A stretch of 64,000 bases of DNA, taken from Alphaproteobacteria bacterium. GTDB lineage: Bacteria; Pseudomonadota; Alphaproteobacteria; UBA8366; Aestuariispiraceae. Position 1 is the stretch's first letter. Each line of letters begins with the position of its first letter. The translations under genes were made by a program, and so were the position numbers. Where the stretch lies: assembly GCA_033344895.1 (NCBI GenBank), contig JAWPMN010000001.1, positions 124,001 to 188,000 on the forward strand, read 5' to 3'. A model generated the notes under the pieces. It ran no database searches. It was not told the DNA's origin and saw only the letters and a program-made list of their open reading frames with translations. This document shows, piece after piece, positions 13,472 to 21,848 of the stretch.

Positions 13472-14512
13472 TCAGCGATGCTTCACGGTGGATTCGTTCG
13501 GAATGCCGTCCATCGGGCATTCCTCCGTTCCTGCCGTGGAGCGCGTCATCGCCTCGACCATTTCGCGGGTACCCTCCGGATCCGTGACCCACTTGCTGTA
13601 GAAGTCATACGGACAGGCGGCCACGCCCTTGTCGCTCTCGCCGGACCCGATCATGCCCGTGTAGCCGCGGTGGACCAGCTTGTAGAGGTGGTTCTGCGAC
13701 TGCATGTTCTTGCGGGCATCGCGGATGAGGGACGTCGACAGTTGCGCGTACTGGATGCCCATATCCTCTTCGCCGCATTCGCCCAGCGTCCGGCCGTCGA
13801 ATCCGATGATCGCCGAATGGCCGAAATAGGAATAGACACCGTCGAAGCCGGCGGCATTGGCCACCGCAACATAGCAGTTGTTTGCCCAGGCCATGGCCTT
13901 GGACATGATCACCTGCTGATCCTTGGCCGGATACATGTAGCCCTGGCAACGGACGATCAGTTCGGCGCCCTTCATCGCGCAGTCGCGCCAGATTTCCGGA
14001 TAGTTGCCATCGTCACAGATGATCAGGCTGATCTTCAGGCCCTTGGGACCCTCCGACACATAGGTGCAATTGCCGGGATACCAGCCCTCAATCGGAACCC
14101 AGGGCATGATCTTGCGGTACTTCTGGACGATCTCACCCTTGTCGTTCATCAGAATCAGCGTGTTGTAGGGCGCCTTGTTCGGATGCTCCTCATGCCGTTC
14201 ACCGGTAAGCGAAAACACACCCCAGACCTTTGCCTTGCGGCAGGCCGCAGCGAAGATTTCCGTCTCCTCGCCCGGGCAGGTCGACGCCGTTTCATACATT
14301 TCCTTCTGGTCGTACATGATGCCGTGGGTGCTGTATTCGGGGAAGATCACCAGATCCATCCCCGGCAGGCCGACCTTCATGCCCTCGATCATGCTCGCTA
14401 TGTTGCGGGCGTTTTCCAGTACCTCCGCCTTAGTGTGCAGGCGGGGCATCTTGTAGTTGACGACAGCGACCCCGACCGTATCGCGGCTGCTGGAAATATC
14501 ACCGTGAAGCAT
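13472..14512 (-). CDS. amiE: Aliphatic amidase
   Basis: A 346-residue nitrilase-superfamily amidase that hydrolyses short aliphatic amides (acetamide, propionamide, acrylamide class) to the acid and ammonia. It follows the Pseudomonas aeruginosa AmiE sequence closely over its whole length. The catalytic residues fall at the same numbers: Glu59 (FPEY), Lys134 (KYRK), Glu142 (PIEGWYP) and nucleophile Cys166 ([13 protein letters not shown]). It lies in an operon with AmiC- and AmiR-type regulators, an Urt/Fmd-type importer and the CbbQ/CbbO-type pair, so amide uptake, hydrolysis and control are encoded together. The related formamidase AmiF is the main alternative, but the N-terminus MLHGDISSS and overall match favour AmiE. 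Confidence 0.95.
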
Positions 14513-14572: not shown

Positions 14573-15271
14573 CTAGACCGCCATGTGCCGCTGGACGAGG
14601 TCGTCCGTAAGTTCGGCGATGGCTCCCGACGCCACGGCGCATCCCTTCTCCATGATCACGAAGGTGTTGCTGGCGCGGCGCGCGAATTCGACGTCCTGTT
14701 CCACCAGCACGATCGCGATCCCGTGCTTGCGGTTCAGGGCGACGATCGATTCCTCGATCTGTTCGACAATGTTCGGCTGGATCCCCTCGGCGGGTTCGTC
14801 GAGAAGGATGATCTTCGGATCGGTCAGCAGGGCCCGCGCAATAGCGAGTTGCTGCTGCTGCCCGCCGGACAGGTTCCCGCCCGCCCGGCCGATATGCTCC
14901 TTCAATGCCGGAAACAGATCGAAGACGATGTCTTCCAGATCCTGCCGGTCCCCCGGACTGCGAGCGAAACCGCCGACCCTGAGATTCTCCATGACGGAGA
15001 AGCGCGGCAGTATCCCCCGCCCCTGCGGGACATAACCGATCCCGGCCCGCGCCCGCATGTGGGTGGCAAGGCCCGTCATCTCCTCGCCGTCCAGCCGGAT
15101 CGACCCGACCGTGCGATCGAGCAGCCCGAGCACGGCGCGCATCAGGGTCGTCTTGCCGACCCCGTTGCGCCCCAGGACACTGACAAATCCGCCGTCCGGG
15201 ACATTGACGCTGACCTGCTGCAGGACGTGGGAGTTTCCGTAAAAGCCGTCCAGGCCGTTGATCTCAAGCAT
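14573..15271 (-). CDS. Amide/urea-type ABC transporter ATP-binding protein (UrtE-like)
   Basis: A 232-residue ATPase of the branched-chain amino acid/urea transporter group (LivF/UrtE). It has Walker A GRNGVGKT, signature LSGGQQQQLAIARAL, and Walker B IILLDEPAEGIQPNIVEQI; the EGIQP wording is typical of UrtE. ATG 15271 (MLEINGLDGFYGN) is chosen over an upstream in-frame Met. It overlaps the UrtD-like gene by 8 bp, so the two ATPases are translationally linked. Fifth gene of the importer set and 60 bp upstream of amiE. Confidence 0.92.
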   Translation of the reverse strand: MLEINGLDGFYGNSHVLQQVSVNVPDGGFVSVLGRNGVGKTTLMRAVLGLLDRTVGSIRLDGEEMTGLATHMRARAGIGYVPQGRGILPRFSVMENLRVGGFARSPGDRQDLEDIVFDLFPALKEHIGRAGGNLSGGQQQQLAIARALLTDPKIILLDEPAEGIQPNIVEQIEESIVALNRKHGIAIVLVEQDVEFARRASNTFVIMEKGCAVASGAIAELTDDLVQRHMAV

Positions 15272-16016
15272 GGCCGATCCCCACTTTTCCCAGATACACT
15301 TCACGTACCTTCTGGTTGTCGCTGATCTCGTCGGCGCGGCCTTCGGCCAGCATGGTTCCCTGATGCATGACCGAGATCACGTCACCGATCTCCTTCACGA
15401 AGCCCATGTCATGTTCGACCACGATGATCGTGTGCCGCCCCTTCAGGCGGTTGCAGATATCCGCGGTCTTTTGGGTTTCCTGGGAAGTCATGCCCGCCGT
15501 CGGCTCGTCCAGCAGGATGAGTTCGCTGTCCTGTGCCAGCAGGAGGGCGATCTCCAGCCACTGTGTCTGTCCGTGAGACAGGTACGACGCCGGCTGATCC
15601 AGGAAATCGACCAGGCCGACGAAATCGGCCAGCTTCTCCAGCCCATCCCGCTCCGGGGCTCGACCGATCCTGACCAGATTGGCAAAGACGCCGGTGCGTT
15701 TGCAGTACGCGACCTCCAGGTTCTCCCGCACCGTCAATTGCTTGAAGACGCTGGGCACCTGAAATTTCCGACCGACTCCGGACCGGGCAATCAGATGTTC
15801 CTCCAACTGTGCCAATTCCTTGCCGCGATACCGGATCGATCCGGATGTCGGCTTGGTCTTGCCGCAGATCAGGTCCAGAGCCGTGGTCTTGCCCGCCCCG
15901 TTGGGCCCGATCAGGCAGCGCAATTCGCCTTTGGCCACCGTCAGGTTGAGGCCGTCCACGGCCCGGAAGCCGTTGAAACTGACCGCGAGGTTTGAAAGTT
16001 CCAGATGCGTGCTCAT
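15264..16016 (-). CDS. Amide/urea-type ABC transporter ATP-binding protein (UrtD-like)
   Basis: A 250-residue ATPase of the LivG/UrtD branch. Walker A is GPNGAGKT, the signature reads LSHGQTQWLEIALLL as in UrtD-type proteins, and Walker B is LILLDEPTAGMT. It overlaps the UrtC-like permease stop by 4 bp and the UrtE-like start by 8 bp. Together the two ATPases should energise import of a short amide or urea-like compound. Confidence 0.92.
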   Translation of the reverse strand: MSTHLELSNLAVSFNGFRAVDGLNLTVAKGELRCLIGPNGAGKTTALDLICGKTKPTSGSIRYRGKELAQLEEHLIARSGVGRKFQVPSVFKQLTVRENLEVAYCKRTGVFANLVRIGRAPERDGLEKLADFVGLVDFLDQPASYLSHGQTQWLEIALLLAQDSELILLDEPTAGMTSQETQKTADICNRLKGRHTIIVVEHDMGFVKEIGDVISVMHQGTMLAEGRADEISDNQKVREVYLGKVGIGHA

Positions 16017-17164
16017 GACCGTTCAGCCGCCCCCTTCTCGGTAAGGACGGAGACATCGGAAACGGTCTCCGTCTGTTGTCTTTCGGAAGGCGCCGCGAGT
16101 CGTCGACGCAGCATTTCGAACAGCCCCGCCAGCCCGTTCGGCAGGAACAGGACGACCAGTACGAAGGCCGCGCCCATGATCAGGGTCCAGGTGTCCAGGA
16201 AGGTTTCGGATTCCGACAGGGTGCCTTCCATGCCGGCGACAAGGATCGCGCCCAGCAATGCGCCCAGCAGGCTCTGCCGGCCGCCGACCGCGCACCAGAT
16301 GACGATGGAAAGGCTGAGCGGCACGCCGAGAAAGGTCGGCGACGCGAACTCCATCACCACGGTGTAGAGCATGCCCGCCACACCGGCGATCCCGGCGGAG
16401 ACCGAGAATGCCAGCACCTTGTACCAGGCAACGTCGTAACCGAAGAACCGCACCCGGTCCTCGTGGTCGCGCACCGCCTGGAGGATCAGCCCGGCCTTGC
16501 TCTTGGTAACGGCCAGCGCCAGGAACAGGCAGACCGTCATGCACACCGCAACCAGGTAATAGGTCGACTTACTATAGGCATCGAATTCGATGCCCAGCAG
16601 TTCCAACTGTGCCAGATCGGTAATTCCGTTGAAGCCGCCGGTGAAGCGCTGCTGGTCGATGATCAGCAGATTGCCGACCACCAGGGTGGCCAGCGTGATG
16701 ATCGCGACATAGACCCCGGTCACCCGTCCCCGGAACATGAACCAGCCCAAGACGACGGCCAGGAAAACGGGGATCAGGACCCCTGCGGCCAAGGCGAAGG
16801 ACATCGAATGGAAGGGCTGCCAGAACCATGGCAGGGTTTCGACATTGTTCCAGACCATGAAGTCTGGCAGGCCGCCTTCCCCGGTATGGACCGGGACCGT
16901 GCGCAGTTTCAGCGCCATGGCCATGCAATAAGACCCGACGCCGAAGCTGAGCGCCTGACCCAGATTGAGGATCCCGGCATAGCCCCAGGACAGGCTGAGC
17001 GCCATGGCCGCCATGCCGAGCACGAGGTATCGCGCGTAGCGGTTCAGCAGGAAGTCGTTGTCCAGGACCAGCGGGAACAGGAAGATCGCGATGCAGACAA
17101 TGGCGTAGACCGTGATCTGGACCGCCGTCCGGTTGCCGAGGAACTGTGTGAATGCGTTAGACAT
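16013..17164 (-). CDS. Amide/urea-type ABC transporter permease (UrtC-like)
   Basis: A 383-residue inner-membrane permease of the LivM/UrtC family with about ten hydrophobic segments and the conserved LSLSWGYAGILNLGQALSFGVGSYCMAM-type region near residues 55-80. ATG 17164 (MSNAFTQFLG) is chosen because the longer frame overlaps the upstream gene and is not hydrophobic. It starts 14 bp after the UrtB-like permease. The C-terminal tail after LFEMLRRRL is short and polar. Confidence 0.9.
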   Translation of the reverse strand: MSNAFTQFLGNRTAVQITVYAIVCIAIFLFPLVLDNDFLLNRYARYLVLGMAAMALSLSWGYAGILNLGQALSFGVGSYCMAMALKLRTVPVHTGEGGLPDFMVWNNVETLPWFWQPFHSMSFALAAGVLIPVFLAVVLGWFMFRGRVTGVYVAIITLATLVVGNLLIIDQQRFTGGFNGITDLAQLELLGIEFDAYSKSTYYLVAVCMTVCLFLALAVTKSKAGLILQAVRDHEDRVRFFGYDVAWYKVLAFSVSAGIAGVAGMLYTVVMEFASPTFLGVPLSLSIVIWCAVGGRQSLLGALLGAILVAGMEGTLSESETFLDTWTLIMGAAFVLVVLFLPNGLAGLFEMLRRRLAAPSERQQTETVSDVSVLTEKGAAERS

Positions 17165-17178
17165 ATTGGCGCCTCCTC

Positions 17179-18048
17179 TCACGACCGGATACGGGAGACG
17201 AACAGGCCCTGGGGCCGGAAACGGATCAGCACGATGATCGCCAGCAGCACCAGCGCCTTCGCGATCGTGTCGTTCCACAGATAGGCCAGACCGCCGGTCA
17301 GCTCGCCCAGCATCAGGGCACTGGCGACCGTGCCGAACAGGCTCTGCACCCCGCCCAGGACGACGACGAAAAACGCGTCGACGACATAGGTCGTCCCCAT
17401 TTCAGGCGAGACGCTCTTCAACGGTGCGACCAGCGCGCCCGCCAGGCCGGCGAGACCGGCCCCGTAGGCGAAAGTCAGGCTGTAGACCTTGTCGGCGTCG
17501 ATCCCGAAACAGGAGGCGACGCTGCGGTCCTGAACCACGGCACGCAGTTTGGTGCCGAAAGTCGTCCGGAACATCAGATACCAGGTCACCGCGAACAGCG
17601 CGGCGACAAAGACGAAGATGAACACGCGATAGCCGGGCACATCGACCCCCAGTATGCCGACGGTGCCGGTCAGGAGTGAGGGCATTTCGACGTAGCGCAG
17701 TTCTCCACCGGCCGAGAGGCGGATGGCCTGCTGCAGCATGACGCCGAGACCCCAGGTCGCCAGGATCGTGTCCAGCGTTCGTGTATAGAGGAAGCGGATC
17801 ACCCCGCGTTCCACCAGCCAGCCCAGGGCGCCCACGCCCAGAAAGACGACGATGAGGCTTGGCAGAAGGCCGACACCGAAGAAGGCGTTCATCGCCCAGG
17901 CACCATAGGCACCCAGCATCACGAATTCGCCATGCGCCATGTTGATGACGCCCATCGACCCGTAGATGATCGCGAGACCGAGCGCGATCAGCAGCAGGAT
18001 CGACCCGATGCTGAGCCCGGTCATGATTTGTTGAAGAAAGAATTCCAT
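17179..18048 (-). CDS. Amide/urea-type ABC transporter permease (UrtB-like, short form)
   Basis: A 289-residue LivH/UrtB-family permease (GLAIIYGSMGVINMAHGEFVMLGAYGAW near residues 20-50; RTLDTILATWGLGVMLQQ; VVLGGVQSLFGTVASALMLG). True UrtB proteins of urea transporters are usually about 500 residues with a long extra N-terminal domain, which is absent here; this fits the amide (Fmd-like) branch better. ATG 18048 is chosen because the first helix follows directly. It lies 70 bp after the binding-protein gene. Confidence 0.9.
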   Translation of the reverse strand: MEFFLQQIMTGLSIGSILLLIALGLAIIYGSMGVINMAHGEFVMLGAYGAWAMNAFFGVGLLPSLIVVFLGVGALGWLVERGVIRFLYTRTLDTILATWGLGVMLQQAIRLSAGGELRYVEMPSLLTGTVGILGVDVPGYRVFIFVFVAALFAVTWYLMFRTTFGTKLRAVVQDRSVASCFGIDADKVYSLTFAYGAGLAGLAGALVAPLKSVSPEMGTTYVVDAFFVVVLGGVQSLFGTVASALMLGELTGGLAYLWNDTIAKALVLLAIIVLIRFRPQGLFVSRIRS

Positions 18049-18118
18049 CTGATGTCCCGTTCTGTCCGGGTGCGGCGCGTCCCGGTCCCGAAGGACACGG
18101 GACGCCACCGCACGGGGT

Positions 18119-19372
18119 TCAGCGACTGTCCGCCGGTCTGCTCTGTACGAGGCCGTCCGCGGTGCAGTGCTGGCTGGGATAGGCGGCGTAGGGCTCCGGC
18201 TTCAGCCATTCCTTGGAATCGCGCAGCACTTCGAACTGGCCGTCCGATTTCGCCATCGCGATCTTCGGCCACAGCCAGGTGTGCAGATTTTCGGATTCCA
18301 GCCGGACCCGGCCTTGCGGAGCCGTCAGTTCCTGCCCTTTCACCGCCTCACGGATCGTGGTCGGATCGATATCGCTCGCCGCCAGTTGCTCGACCGCCTG
18401 CTTGAACAGGTAGATCTGGAAGTAGGACGGTTCCGACACGAAGTGGGTGACCTTGTCGCCGCCCCAGCGGGATTTGTAGGCCTCCACGAAGCGTTCGTTC
18501 TCAGGCGATTGGTGGACCATGAAATACGGCGCGGAGGTGAAGTGACCGGCCGCCGCGTCGCCGCCCATGGCCGCGACCTCGTTCTCCGACGTCGTCAGGC
18601 TGGCCATCGGCATCTTGTCCGGATCGAGGCCGGCCGCCCGGTACTGGCGGTGCAGCGCGACGACGGAATCGCCCACGACCGTGGAGAAGATGACGTTCGG
18701 CTGGGTGCTCTGGATCTTGTTGATGACCGAACTGAACTCGGAATGGCCCAGCGGGACATATTCCTCGTTCACGACTTCCGCGCCGAGTTCTTCCAGCAGC
18801 TTCTTGCAGTAATTGTTCTCTTCCTTCGGATAGATGTAGTTCGATCCGATCAGGTAGAATTTCTTGCCGAACTTCTCGACCAGCCAGGGAATGAACTCAT
18901 CCTGCTGCTGGTTCGGCACGGCGCCGGTGTAGATGACGTTCTTTGAGCACTCGCGGCCTTCATAGAGCGTCGGATACCAATAGAGATTGTCCCGCTTCTC
19001 GAAGACCGGCAGGACCGCCTTACGGCTGGCCGAGGTATAGGAACCGAAGACCGAAACGCATTTGTCGCCGACGACCAGCTTGCGCGCCTTGACCGCGAAG
19101 GTCGCGGGGTCGGAGGCCGGGTCTTCGACCACCGGCACGATCTTCATGCCGTTGATGCCGCCGGCATCGTTGATCTCTTCGATCGCCAGCAGGGTCGCCT
19201 TGTTCAGCGATTCTTCGATGATGCCGGTCGTACCGGTCAGCGAAAACAGAACCCCGACCTTGATTTCGCCATTCGAAGCGCGCGCCAGGGACGTATCCTT
19301 GCGCCAGATATGCGGGGCTGCGGTAAAGGCGCCCGTTGCCGCGGCGCCGATCAGAAAGTCTCTTCTCTTCAT
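18119..19372 (-). CDS. Amide/urea-type ABC transporter substrate-binding protein
   Basis: A 417-residue periplasmic binding protein. It starts at ATG 19372, just after GGGAGAAAGAGC, with a twin-arginine-like signal MKRRDFLIGAAATGAF ahead of GEIKVGVLFSLTGTTGIIEESL. It belongs to the UrtA/FmdD/AmiC family: SRKAVLPVFEKRDNLYWYP, YTGAVPNQQQ, NYIYPKEENN and VIFSTVVGDSV. It resembles the AmiC sensor encoded two genes upstream over most of its length, so one protein fold is used for both uptake and sensing. Expression is probably set by the terminator-rich leader at 19396-19627. Confidence 0.92.
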   Translation of the reverse strand: MKRRDFLIGAAATGAFTAAPHIWRKDTSLARASNGEIKVGVLFSLTGTTGIIEESLNKATLLAIEEINDAGGINGMKIVPVVEDPASDPATFAVKARKLVVGDKCVSVFGSYTSASRKAVLPVFEKRDNLYWYPTLYEGRECSKNVIYTGAVPNQQQDEFIPWLVEKFGKKFYLIGSNYIYPKEENNYCKKLLEELGAEVVNEEYVPLGHSEFSSVINKIQSTQPNVIFSTVVGDSVVALHRQYRAAGLDPDKMPMASLTTSENEVAAMGGDAAAGHFTSAPYFMVHQSPENERFVEAYKSRWGGDKVTHFVSEPSYFQIYLFKQAVEQLAASDIDPTTIREAVKGQELTAPQGRVRLESENLHTWLWPKIAMAKSDGQFEVLRDSKEWLKPEPYAAYPSQHCTADGLVQSRPADSR

Positions 19373-19395
19373 GCTCTTTCTCCCTGTCCGAAACA

Positions 19396-19440
19396 CAAAA
19401 AGCCCCGAGCCGATCCGCGGGATGCGGTCGTTCTCGGGGC
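19396..19440 (-). terminator. Second intrinsic terminator of the amide operon leader (T2)
   Basis: Read leftward, GCCCCGAG (19433-19440) pairs with CTCGGGGC (19402-19409), followed by five Ts. It stands 24 bp before the binding-protein start, downstream of T1. Two terminators in a row between amiR and the transporter genes point to deliberate transcriptional gating. Confidence 0.8.
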
Positions 19441-19520
19441 ACCATTGCCAACACTGTGTTATGGACGGCCGCGCGGCCGCCAAAAATCGATTCCCAAAAT
19501 TGGGTCCGGAGGGAAGCAAC

Positions 19521-19562
19521 AAAAAACCCCACGGACTCGCGCATCGCGAAATCGTCGTGGGG
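19521..19562 (-). terminator. First intrinsic terminator of the amide operon leader (T1)
   Basis: Read leftward, CCCCACG (19556-19562) pairs with CGTGGGG (19527-19533), with further pairing inside the stem (TCGCG/CGCGA), followed by six Ts (19521-19526). Its 5' arm overlaps a small hexaloop hairpin, so the two structures are mutually exclusive. Confidence 0.85.
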
Positions 19563-19627
19563 CTGCTTCGCCGTCGATTTTTAAGGGCGGCTTCTCTGCC
19601 GCCAGATGGATCGTCTTTTCACGATCC
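19549..19627 (-). promoter_or_regulatory. Putative ANTAR (AmiR) antitermination target: tandem hexaloop hairpins
   Basis: Read leftward from the amiR stop there are three hairpins with 6-nt loops: stem GGATCGT/ACGATCC with loop GAAAAG (19608-19627); stem GGCGGC/GCCGCC with loop AGAGAA (19586-19603); and short stem GGC/GCC with loop GAAGCA (19561-19572), enclosed by AAATCG/CGATTT (19575-19580 with 19549-19554). ANTAR proteins are known to bind two successive hexaloops with A at loop position 1 and G at position 4. The second loop fits fully; the third has G4 but not A1. The third hairpin shares bases with the 5' arm of terminator T1, as expected for an antiterminator. Confidence 0.65.
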
Positions 19628-19636
19628 GGAAAAACG

Positions 19637-20302
19637 TTAGCCGAGGATTTCCTGAGAGTCAATCAGCGCGTTAGCCACGCTGCCGATCGAAACACGGCGT
19701 TCCATCGCCTGACGCCGCAGGAAATGGTACGCTTCCTCTTCATTCATGTTCTTCATGCGCATGACGATGGCCTTGGCGCGCTCAACGCTGCGCATCGTTC
19801 GCAGATTTTCATCCAGCCTGTCGATCCGGCCACGCAGGCGCCGTTCGTAGAGAAAATGCTCCCGCGCCAGAAACAGGCTGGACTGAACGCTCGCCGGTTG
19901 CAGCGGATAGTGCAGAATCGATTGCGTGGCACAGTTGCGAACCAGTCCATAATCCACCGGCACCTTGCCTGTCGCTACGAGCACCAGGGCTGCTTCCGGC
20001 TCCCCCGGCACCCAGGGCAACCGGCTGGGCAGATCCTCCGTCAGTTCGCAGTAGATGACATCGAAATCGACGGGCAGTTGCGGTGGCACCGGCCAGATAT
20101 GCTGGACCCGGACCCGCGCACGCTGCAATTCCCGGATCAGGCGTTCCCCGTCGTCGCTTCGTTCCGCGATCACAGCGACATCCATGTTCGCAAATCGGAA
20201 TGTCGGGCTGCGATCCTTGCCGTGCTGGACGGGCTGCCCGCGTCCGCCCGCGGGCCCGCGCGACCGGTTCTGTCCTTCCTGACGGTTGATCATGCCGCTC
20301 AT
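19637..20302 (-). CDS. amiR: ANTAR-domain antitermination regulator (AmiR-type)
   Basis: A 221-residue RNA-binding regulator. The N-terminal part (about 38-150) is a degenerate receiver-like domain, a helix rich in Arg/Glu follows (FLYERRLRGRIDRLDENLR), and the C-terminal ANTAR domain is at about 165-215 (VERAKAIVMRMKNMNEEEAYHFLRRQAM). In the Pseudomonas system AmiR is held inactive by AmiC and, when released by amide, prevents termination in the leader mRNA. Here amiC is 18 bp upstream, and a leader with hexaloop hairpins and terminators follows at once. A GGAGGGGG ribosome site precedes ATG 20302. Confidence 0.93.
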   Translation of the reverse strand: MSGMINRQEGQNRSRGPAGGRGQPVQHGKDRSPTFRFANMDVAVIAERSDDGERLIRELQRARVRVQHIWPVPPQLPVDFDVIYCELTEDLPSRLPWVPGEPEAALVLVATGKVPVDYGLVRNCATQSILHYPLQPASVQSSLFLAREHFLYERRLRGRIDRLDENLRTMRSVERAKAIVMRMKNMNEEEAYHFLRRQAMERRVSIGSVANALIDSQEILG

Positions 20303-20320
20303 GCTCGCCCCCTCCGCAGC

Positions 20321-21460
20321 CTAACCGAATGCCAGATTGCGGCTGTAGCCGATGAGGTATGGATCGGCCTTCACCCGGTCCTTCGATTCGAAGACCAGAT
20401 CGAACTGTCCGTTTTCATTGGCACGTCCGATCCGGGTCCATAGGTCGGTATGGCCGCAGACCGGGTTGATGGAAATCTCACCCTGAGGCGCCTCGAACTC
20501 GGATCCGATGACGGAGGCGCGGAGGATTTCGGTGTCGATCGAATTCGTCTCTTCCAGTGCCTTGGCGAAGACATGCACCTGAAAATAGGACGCTTCCAGG
20601 CACATATTCGTCGGCTCATCCTCCCCGTATCGCTTCTTGTAGAGTTGGACGAAGGACGAGTTTCGCTCGTTTCCGATTTCCTGGAAGTAGGGCGCAGCCG
20701 TGATGTGCCCCTCACCGACGTCATAGCCCATGGCCTTGATCTCGGCTTCTGTGGTGGTCAGGCTTGCGATCGGGGTGACCTTCGGGTTGAAGCCGAAATC
20801 ATTGTAGGTCTGGTAGAGATGGACCGTGGCGTCCCCGACGACCGTCGAAAAGATGACGTCCGGCTGGGCATTCTTCATCTCGCGCATGATTTCCGTGAAT
20901 TCCTTGCGGTCTGCGCCTAGCCGGACATACCGCTCACCGACCACCTCGCCGCCGCTGTTTTTCACCAGCTCGCGCATGATCCGGTTGGATTCACGTGGAT
21001 AGATGTAGTCAGCACCGACGAAGAAGAAACGCTTGCCATACATCTCCATCAGGACGCGGCACAGTTCGACGCTGTTCTGGTTCGGCGCGGCCCCGGTATA
21101 GATCACGTTTGGAGAGTATTCGAACCCTTCATAAAGGGTCGGATACCAAAGCAACCCGTTCAGCCGTTCCACCACCGGCAGCACCGCCTTGCGGCTGCTG
21201 GAGGTGTAGCAGCCGAAGATCGTATTGACCCCGTCCTCTACCATGAGCCGTTTCGCCAGACGTCCGAAGGCGCGCGCCTCCGATCCCGGGTCATAGATCA
21301 CCGGTTCCAGTTCGCGCCCATTGATGCCTCCAGCGGCATTGATTTCCTCAATCGCGGTCAAGGTGCCGCGCAACTGCGTTTCCTCAATGACCGCCATGAA
21401 ACCGCTTTGAGAGAACAGTACGCCGACACGCCAAGGTTCGGTCGTCTTCGTGGTATCCAT
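20321..21460 (-). CDS. amiC: Cytoplasmic amide-sensing regulator (AmiC-type)
   Basis: A 379-residue protein of the periplasmic-binding-protein fold but with no signal peptide: MDTTKTTEPWRVGVLFSQSG runs straight into the domain. It shares hallmark stretches with Pseudomonas AmiC (SRKAVLPVVERLNGLLWYP, YEGFEYSPNVIYTG, PNQNS, DYIYPRESN, DVIFSTVVG, IASLTTTEAE). AmiC binds short amides and controls AmiR by complex formation. It is the first gene of the leftward amide operon. Its ribosome site lies in a tandem duplicated 10-mer (GACGACGGGA twice, 21461-21480). Confidence 0.93.
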   Translation of the reverse strand: MDTTKTTEPWRVGVLFSQSGFMAVIEETQLRGTLTAIEEINAAGGINGRELEPVIYDPGSEARAFGRLAKRLMVEDGVNTIFGCYTSSSRKAVLPVVERLNGLLWYPTLYEGFEYSPNVIYTGAAPNQNSVELCRVLMEMYGKRFFFVGADYIYPRESNRIMRELVKNSGGEVVGERYVRLGADRKEFTEIMREMKNAQPDVIFSTVVGDATVHLYQTYNDFGFNPKVTPIASLTTTEAEIKAMGYDVGEGHITAAPYFQEIGNERNSSFVQLYKKRYGEDEPTNMCLEASYFQVHVFAKALEETNSIDTEILRASVIGSEFEAPQGEISINPVCGHTDLWTRIGRANENGQFDLVFESKDRVKADPYLIGYSRNLAFG

Positions 21461-21848
21461 TCCCGTCGTCTCCCGTCGTCGGACTGCCTGTTACAGTCAA
21501 CACGATCGAACGAGAATTGCCGCCTTGTATTTTTGCGGTCATTACACCCGTTCGAACTGCGGGACGTCGATCCATGCGATCAAGCGTCCCTGGCTCCCTC
21601 CCCGGCAGGCCCTCGTGGATGCGGAAGCCGAACATCCCTGCGGCATTTACGTGACTGTCCCCGGGCGGGCCGGGGCAGATAACGAAAAAGGCGAAGGGGC
21701 CTCCACACGGCTCCGCTCATTGCGGAGACATCCGGAGGCCCCTTCGCCCTGGTATTTTCAGCGGCGCCAATGCCGCAAGCCCGCATCGCAGGCCGTCTGA
21801 AACGCTACCGTCACCGTTTCTGCAAGTCAACGGCCTTGGTCGCACAGG
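21461..21848. other. 388-bp gap: amiC promoter region and marR terminator
   Basis: It separates the amiC start (21460) from the marR stop (21849), both leftward. No gene is seen. The left part must contain the amide operon promoter, though no clear -35/-10 pair or sigma-54 site stood out. Next to amiC lies a tandem 10-bp duplication (21461-21480) and a small GACTG/CAGTC dyad around 21490. The right part contains a strong terminator, listed separately. Confidence 0.6.
21685..21748 (-). terminator. Strong intrinsic terminator after marR (end of TRAP-ior operon)
   Basis: A perfect 15-bp inverted repeat, GGCGAAGGGGCCTCC at 21690-21704 and its complement at 21734-21748, encloses a second perfect 6-bp hairpin (CTCCGC/GCGGAG, 21711-21727). 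On the leftward strand it ends in five Ts (21685-21689). It closes the leftward marR/ior/dct transcript. Confidence 0.88.

Follow-up and report, generated by a model that had tools for sequence, protein, structure and literature searches.

Within the 64-kb stretch of alphaproteobacterial DNA analysed here (the window), the genes for an AmiC-like sensor, AmiR, a UrtA-type substrate-binding protein, UrtB, UrtC, UrtD, UrtE and an aliphatic amidase follow one another on the minus strand, with a leader separating amiR from the genes behind it (Table 1). AmiR carries an AmiR-type pseudo-receiver and an ANTAR domain (PF03861 and PF21332, both above cut-off) and matches P. aeruginosa AmiR (1qo0; E 6e-10); as in an AmiC-AmiR pair, an AmiC-type partner, a candidate amide binder, is encoded beside it. 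The leader is interpreted here as two ANTAR antitermination attenuators in series (units 1 and 2) on which AmiR, the product of the gene immediately ahead, would act, with a probability of roughly 0.8. The sequence elements, their conservation and covariation, their mutual exclusivity and the gene context are observed directly.

Table 1. Features of the amiC-amiR-urt-amidase locus, listed in minus-strand order
Feature	Position	Strand	Remarks
Promoter-like TTGACT-17-TAGCGT	21802..21830	-	Upstream of unit 0
Unit 0	21685..21776	-	R1 covariance match; orthologous units
Unit 0 P1, GCGGC-ATTGGC-GCCGC	21776-21761	-	A1, G4
Unit 0 P2, GGGC-GAAGGG-GCCT	21749-21736	-	G1, G4
Unit 0 terminator T0	reaching 21685	-	Long
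amiC-like amide sensor	20321..21460	-	Peripla_BP_5; AmiC 1pea, E 1e-83
amiR	19637..20302	-	AmiR_N pseudo-receiver and ANTAR domain
P0 hairpin, GGATCGT-GAAAAG-ACGATCC	19608..19627	-	Loop without A1 or G4
Unit 1 P1 hairpin, GGCGGC-AGAGAA-GCCGCC	19586..19603	-	A1, G4; stem covaries in 18 leaders
Unit 1 P2 hairpin, GGC-GAAGCA-GCC	19561..19572	-	G1, G4; 3' arm overlaps 5' arm of T1
Terminator T1, CCCCACG...CGTGGGG + TTTTTT	19521..19562	-	Stem 19562-19527 and U-tract
Unit 2 P1' hairpin, GGCGGC-CGCGCG-GCCGTC	19464..19481	-	C1, G4; C1-G6 may pair, leaving a tetraloop
Unit 2 P2' hairpin, GGC-AATGGT-GCC	19438..19449	-	A1, G4; 3' arm overlaps 5' arm of T2
Terminator T2, GCCCCGAG...CTCGGGGC + TTTTT	19397..19440	-	Stem 19440-19402 and U-tract
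UrtA/amide-type substrate-binding protein	18119..19372	-	First gene after tandem leader
urtB, urtC, urtD, urtE	14573..18051	-	NCBIfam equivalogs above cut-off
Aliphatic amidase	13472..14512	-	NF009802, 724 bits (cut-off 427)

A sequence-only reading had placed a dual-hexaloop ANTAR leader over a terminator directly after amiR, and for unit 1 this is supported by 18 orthologous leaders, by covariation in P1, P2 and T1, and by the adjacent AmiR. The P1 hairpin with the loop AGAGAA was found on the minus strand where it had been placed, and the 3' arm of P2 is indeed common to the 5' arm of T1; the P2 loop, GAAGCA, has G rather than A at position 1, together with G4. When growing unit 1 transcripts were folded stepwise, P2 was present until the 3' arm of T1 emerged and was then displaced; the leader stretch as a whole folds about 5 s.d. 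better than its dinucleotide shuffles (z -5.05). The second terminator that had been noted, T2, is present and stops some 25 nt short of the start codon of the substrate-binding protein gene, but it is not bare: its own dual hairpin, P1'/P2', had been overlooked. The ANTAR reading, supported for unit 1, was incomplete: T2 forms part of another unit, and one more, unit 0, lies upstream of amiC.

A further hairpin noted ahead of unit 1, P0, also exists and is confined to the window and its sister species, in which the loop has 7 nt. P0 was rejected as an ANTAR hairpin because A1 and G4 are both lacking from its GAAAAG loop and because it is missing beyond the sister species; it is a lineage-specific element, and nothing about it suggests a target of AmiR.

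The sequence-only reading had been staked on conservation of loops and stems in orthologous leaders; they are conserved, and it survives. The 18 leaders compared, each between amiR and a substrate-binding protein gene, represent the window lineage, Rhizobiaceae and Stappiaceae (Roseibium, Rhizobium, Ciceribacter, the sister genome and others); orthologues were drawn from plasmid records and Rhizobiaceae genomes, and a contig search with AmiR gave two loci. AmiR identity ranged from 54 to 63% (86% in the sister species) and that of the substrate-binding protein from 73 to 98%. T1 and T2 were found in all 18 leaders, each overlapped by a P2-type hexaloop hairpin, and P1' was clear in 16 (by eye, the P1' loop of L042 has five bases and P1' of L035 is unclear). 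Within unit 1, 98.3% of the cells in the P1 and P2 stems were paired and 6 of 10 pairs had changed on both sides; covariation reached 0.339, against 0.182 in shuffled and at most 0.110 in slid controls; with sequences this closely connected by descent, shuffle counts are not to be read as probabilities. For P1 taken with T1, 98.4% of cells were paired and 7 of 14 pairs had changed on both sides. Alignment columns 41 and 44 belong to the stems of P2 and of T1 alike and vary in step with the partner in each, which is the pattern expected of two competing structures. Consensus folding recovered P1 and the terminator in both units. The P1' and P2' stems of unit 2 were 100% paired and almost invariant, so that covariation is uninformative there because the stems hardly vary; in T2, three pairs had changed on both sides.

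The textbook rule for ANTAR loops calls for A at position 1. Among these leaders it was G4 that proved nearly constant, being present in 61 of 68 loops (P1, 17/18; P2, 17/18; P1', 15/16; P2', 12/16), with unit 2 tabulated for 16 leaders. Position 1 was A in every unit 1 P1, A (11) or G (7) in unit 1 P2, and mostly G in P1'. A later survey permitted a single variation in ANTAR loops (PMC8164766), and the structure of EutV with its RNA has G4 stacked against Tyr164 and reports no specific contact for A1 (PMC8934654). The comparison suggests, in agreement with the EutV structure, that G4 and not A1 is the fixed loop base. Window AmiR keeps most of the EutV residues that contact RNA: by manual mapping, Y192, M200, K177 and E188 are the counterparts of Tyr164, Met172, Lys149 and Glu160, respectively, with Lys143 and Lys147 replaced by Arg and Arg142 by Met. 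These predicted contacts and the conserved G4 support the interpretation as a dual-hexaloop antiterminator. In the window itself, units 0, 1 and 2 each have two hairpins whose stems measure 3 bp or more and whose loops measure 6 nt (the loops of unit 2 being able to close to tetraloops), all six loops have G4, and the 3' arm of P2 overlaps the 5' arm of the terminator. No unit has A1 in both loops: A1 occurs in unit 1 P1, unit 2 P2' and unit 0 P1, G1 in unit 1 P2 and unit 0 P2, and C1 in unit 2 P1'. The linkers are 13 nt (unit 1) and 14 nt (unit 2), to be set beside reference limits of 5-12 nt that were measured only for EutV. On account of loop position 1, the window units are taken as a variant, and not as strict members, of the ANTAR dual-hexaloop class.

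Whether unit 2 responds to AmiR is the weakest point of this interpretation. On folding, both of its window loops could close into tetraloops, P1' by a C1-G6 pair and P2' by A1-U6, and RNAalifold predicted pairing between loop positions 1 and 6 of P1' for 11 of the 16 sequences; such closure could weaken recognition by the ANTAR domain. Linker length bears on the same point, as a 14-nt linker drastically cut induction in the E. faecalis eut system, where linkers are 5-12 nt (PMC3369931); unit 1 linkers are mostly 7-10 nt in relatives and 12-13 nt in the window lineage, and those of unit 2 are 10-16 nt. Because its loops can close and its window linker is long, unit 2 may be a weaker or passive gate in the window lineage. 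Taken to its end, this would leave unit 1 (and unit 0) alone responsive to AmiR, with unit 2 of the window lineage decayed to a constitutive, partly leaky terminator that lowers basal expression. The loops CGCGCG and AAUGGU, the 14-nt linker and the tendency of P1' to close in relatives as well fit such decay, but divergent relatives preserve the arrangement of P1', P2' and T2, G4 is found in 15 of 16 P1' loops, the P2' stem is invariant, and P2' of the window has both A1 and G4. Decay of unit 2 is accordingly judged unlikely, if the strongest of the alternatives.

The third unit emerged from a covariance model, R1, built from the unit 1 alignment. R1 matched upstream of amiC at 21698-21777 (26 bits), the best place after unit 1 in the 4.6-Mb genome (E 0.03, other listed places exceeding 1, with 150 of 2773 candidates scored). 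A corresponding unit 0 was present in 14 loci, window included, and in all 14 TTGAC and a TAnnnT-type -10 stand 42-57 nt before P1; in six tandem loci no unit 0 was detected immediately upstream of amiC, another gene being there instead. Unit 2 scored 23 bits with R1 in the search of the loci and was not among the whole-genome matches listed (150 of 2773 candidates scored).

The position of the promoter-like motif bears on whether T1 is simply the terminator that ends an amiCR operon, an independent promoter in or after amiR driving the transporter genes with T2 as their sole attenuator. T1 does sit where such a terminator would be, because it comes directly after amiR and P1 of unit 1 begins within a few tens of nucleotides of the stop codon. 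Unit 1, however, has all the parts of a dual-hexaloop attenuator and shows covariation, the gap between amiR and unit 1 leaves hardly any space for a promoter, a sigma-70 pattern scan returned no minus-strand site within 19000-20500, and the conserved promoter-like motif stands instead ahead of unit 0. A promoter inside amiR may exist; the operon-end explanation as a whole is improbable.

The circuit is likely to run from the promoter through unit 0, amiC-amiR, unit 1 and unit 2 to the urtABCDE-like transporter and the amidase. What we infer is AmiR binding, amide as the signal, a single transcript passing all gates and a sharpened response. Without amide, AmiC would keep AmiR inactive, each nascent unit would fold into P1 and its terminator, and RNA polymerase would halt at T1, or at T2 if it had passed T1. 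With amide, released AmiR would bind P1 and P2 of each unit; the bound P2 would retain the 5' arm of the terminator, T1 could not form, and RNA polymerase would read on into the genes for the urtABCDE-like transporter and the aliphatic amidase. Lying ahead of amiC, unit 0 would gate the regulator pair itself, amounting to positive autoregulation, so that a transcript begun upstream of amiC would have to pass three gates to reach the effector genes. Gates in series should multiply the suppression of leak and steepen the response, as has been argued for pseudo-cooperative tandem riboswitches, in which serial gates answer one signal (PMC9481103). In its fullest form the proposal is a conserved three-gate circuit, with the regulator pair behind one AmiR-dependent terminator and the effectors behind three, combining positive feedback with a multiplicative, switch-like response to amide, and with the two intercistronic gates maintained as separate classes, one with a short linker and A1/G4 and the other with a long linker and G1/G4, both recognised by a single AmiR; this we advance tentatively, at a little under even odds.

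The units might also be read together, one AmiR dimer bridging a hairpin of unit 1 and a hairpin of unit 2 as a single cooperative platform. The crystal structure of EutV makes other pairings conceivable, since the orientation of the dimer bars contact with both hexaloops of one RNA molecule (PMC8934654), and the two units are always kept together in tandem leaders. Unit 1, however, is transcribed and its fate decided before unit 2 exists, and the length of the leader varies widely among loci (234-330 nt), which makes a bridging dimer a poor prospect compared with two units acting in series.

The specificity of the serial pattern was gauged with a motif scan that called for a P1 hexaloop with G4, a linker, a P2 hexaloop with R at position 1 and G4, and an overlapping terminator. 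Applied to both strands of the 64-kb window, it gave exactly two matches, units 1 and 2, and did not pick up unit 0; control rules with C4 or U4, or with loops of 5, 7 or 8 nt, gave none, and A4 gave one. Since the rules were drawn up after related leaders had been seen, the scan is a test of specificity and not of discovery. Its scope was the window and the retrieved loci, the whole genome being searched by the covariance model. That the terminators T1 and T2 alone are real, the other hairpins being commonplace in GC-rich sequence and their hexaloops accidental, is hardly credible, as GGC-N6-GCC comes up readily in such DNA but the loop-size and loop-base controls gave 0 apart from the single A4 match, the elements are conserved and covary across 18 leaders, and for unit 1 stem covariation led to its rejection.

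Several ANTAR units within one gene cluster have been known from the eut genes of E. faecalis (PMC3369936), where attenuators ahead of eutP, eutG, eutS and eutA share G4 hexaloops and the P2/terminator overlap with those described here. There, however, each gene has one unit, in contrast to two in tandem within one leader; position 1 is looser and the linkers longer in the present units, and EutV has a phosphorylated receiver, unlike the AmiR-type pseudo-receiver. The AmiC-AmiR system and amiE leader of P. aeruginosa are alike in the AmiC-type sensor, the pseudo-receiver and ANTAR domain of AmiR, the dual-hairpin leader with P2 overlapping an intrinsic terminator, and the aliphatic amidase under control. 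Accounts of P. aeruginosa place a single unit ahead of amiE, the operon also containing amiC and amiR, whereas here amiCR comes first behind its own unit and the effectors, which include a urea/amide-type ABC transporter, follow two tandem units. NasR and the nasF leader of Klebsiella oxytoca likewise provide a dual-hexaloop antiterminator for a nitrogen-assimilation operon, but with a single described unit and a nitrate-sensing NIT domain. In the main text of the work on Desulfotomaculum acetoxidans, at least 13 ANTAR attenuators are placed on six transcriptional units, hence more than one per unit, in another organism and on other genes, and the layout within leaders is not described in that main text (Ramesh 2012); urea transporters are among the predicted targets (PMC3369931). 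The nearest functional parallel is with TPP and c-di-GMP tandem riboswitches, two or more independent terminator switches giving a steeper response to one signal, although there the RNA binds a ligand and no protein antiterminator is involved. Tandem ANTAR units in one leader were not described in the main texts of the literature searched. What is new is the conserved serial layout and the relaxed loop rule; the mechanism itself is the known one of AmiR, NasR and EutV. Well-studied ANTAR leaders are described as having one antiterminator unit each; the conserved tandem and the unit ahead of the regulator offer a setting in which to ask whether gates in series give sharp, low-leak induction, as tandem riboswitches do. 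The 18 leaders supply comparative evidence that G4 rather than A1 is fixed, which argues that searches strict for A1 miss real targets. A permissive Rfam search of the leader gave no match; for the element that it did not report here, the unit 1 alignment supplies a covariance model fit for use.

With stricter filters, R1 matched 9 of 398 genomes in a phylum-wide search, and no further tandem was detected by the motif scan in the loci returned; as a model specific to this clade's unit 1, R1 would not pick up other units. All 18 tandem loci fall in one supported AmiR group, together with four non-tandem rows: L015, in which the transporter does not follow the leader, and L028, L047 and L048, which form a divergent branch whose leaders have a single terminator. 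The tandem label requires two changes on this tree. Loci with AmiR below about 40% identity to that of the window have one recognisable unit or none.

Among close AmiR relatives (57%), L015 and L026 lack a transporter behind; in L026 the proteins there are hypothetical and GTP-binding ones, and the covariance model finds one leader unit. Two distant AmiR loci, L053 and L057, have one unit by relaxed criteria and, further on, a second hexaloop hairpin (AGC-AACGAA-GCU) at some distance ahead of a further hairpin resembling a terminator; they may represent another tandem variant. Between the window (19423-16625) and its sister, L014, identity is about 74-77% in most of the leader, 70-89% in amiR and 87-97% in the substrate-binding protein gene, a rather abrupt rise for which recombination or strong constraint might account. 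The record of L014 (CP051228.1) bears the title Mesoflavibacter (Bacteroidota), but a genome placed in the window's own genus has identical coordinates and an identical match, and the name looks wrong; so does that of L023 (NZ_CP084753.1), titled Roseateles (UNVERIFIED_ORG), whose leader is identical to that of L043 from the Rhizobiaceae search. Just one other ANTAR match above cut-off was found in the genome of the window (L063 1477-2073, minus strand; G000:C1, about 529.8 kb), and the adjoining reading frame resembles, by eye, a NasS-type nitrate-binding protein, so that the two may form a NasS-NasT pair.
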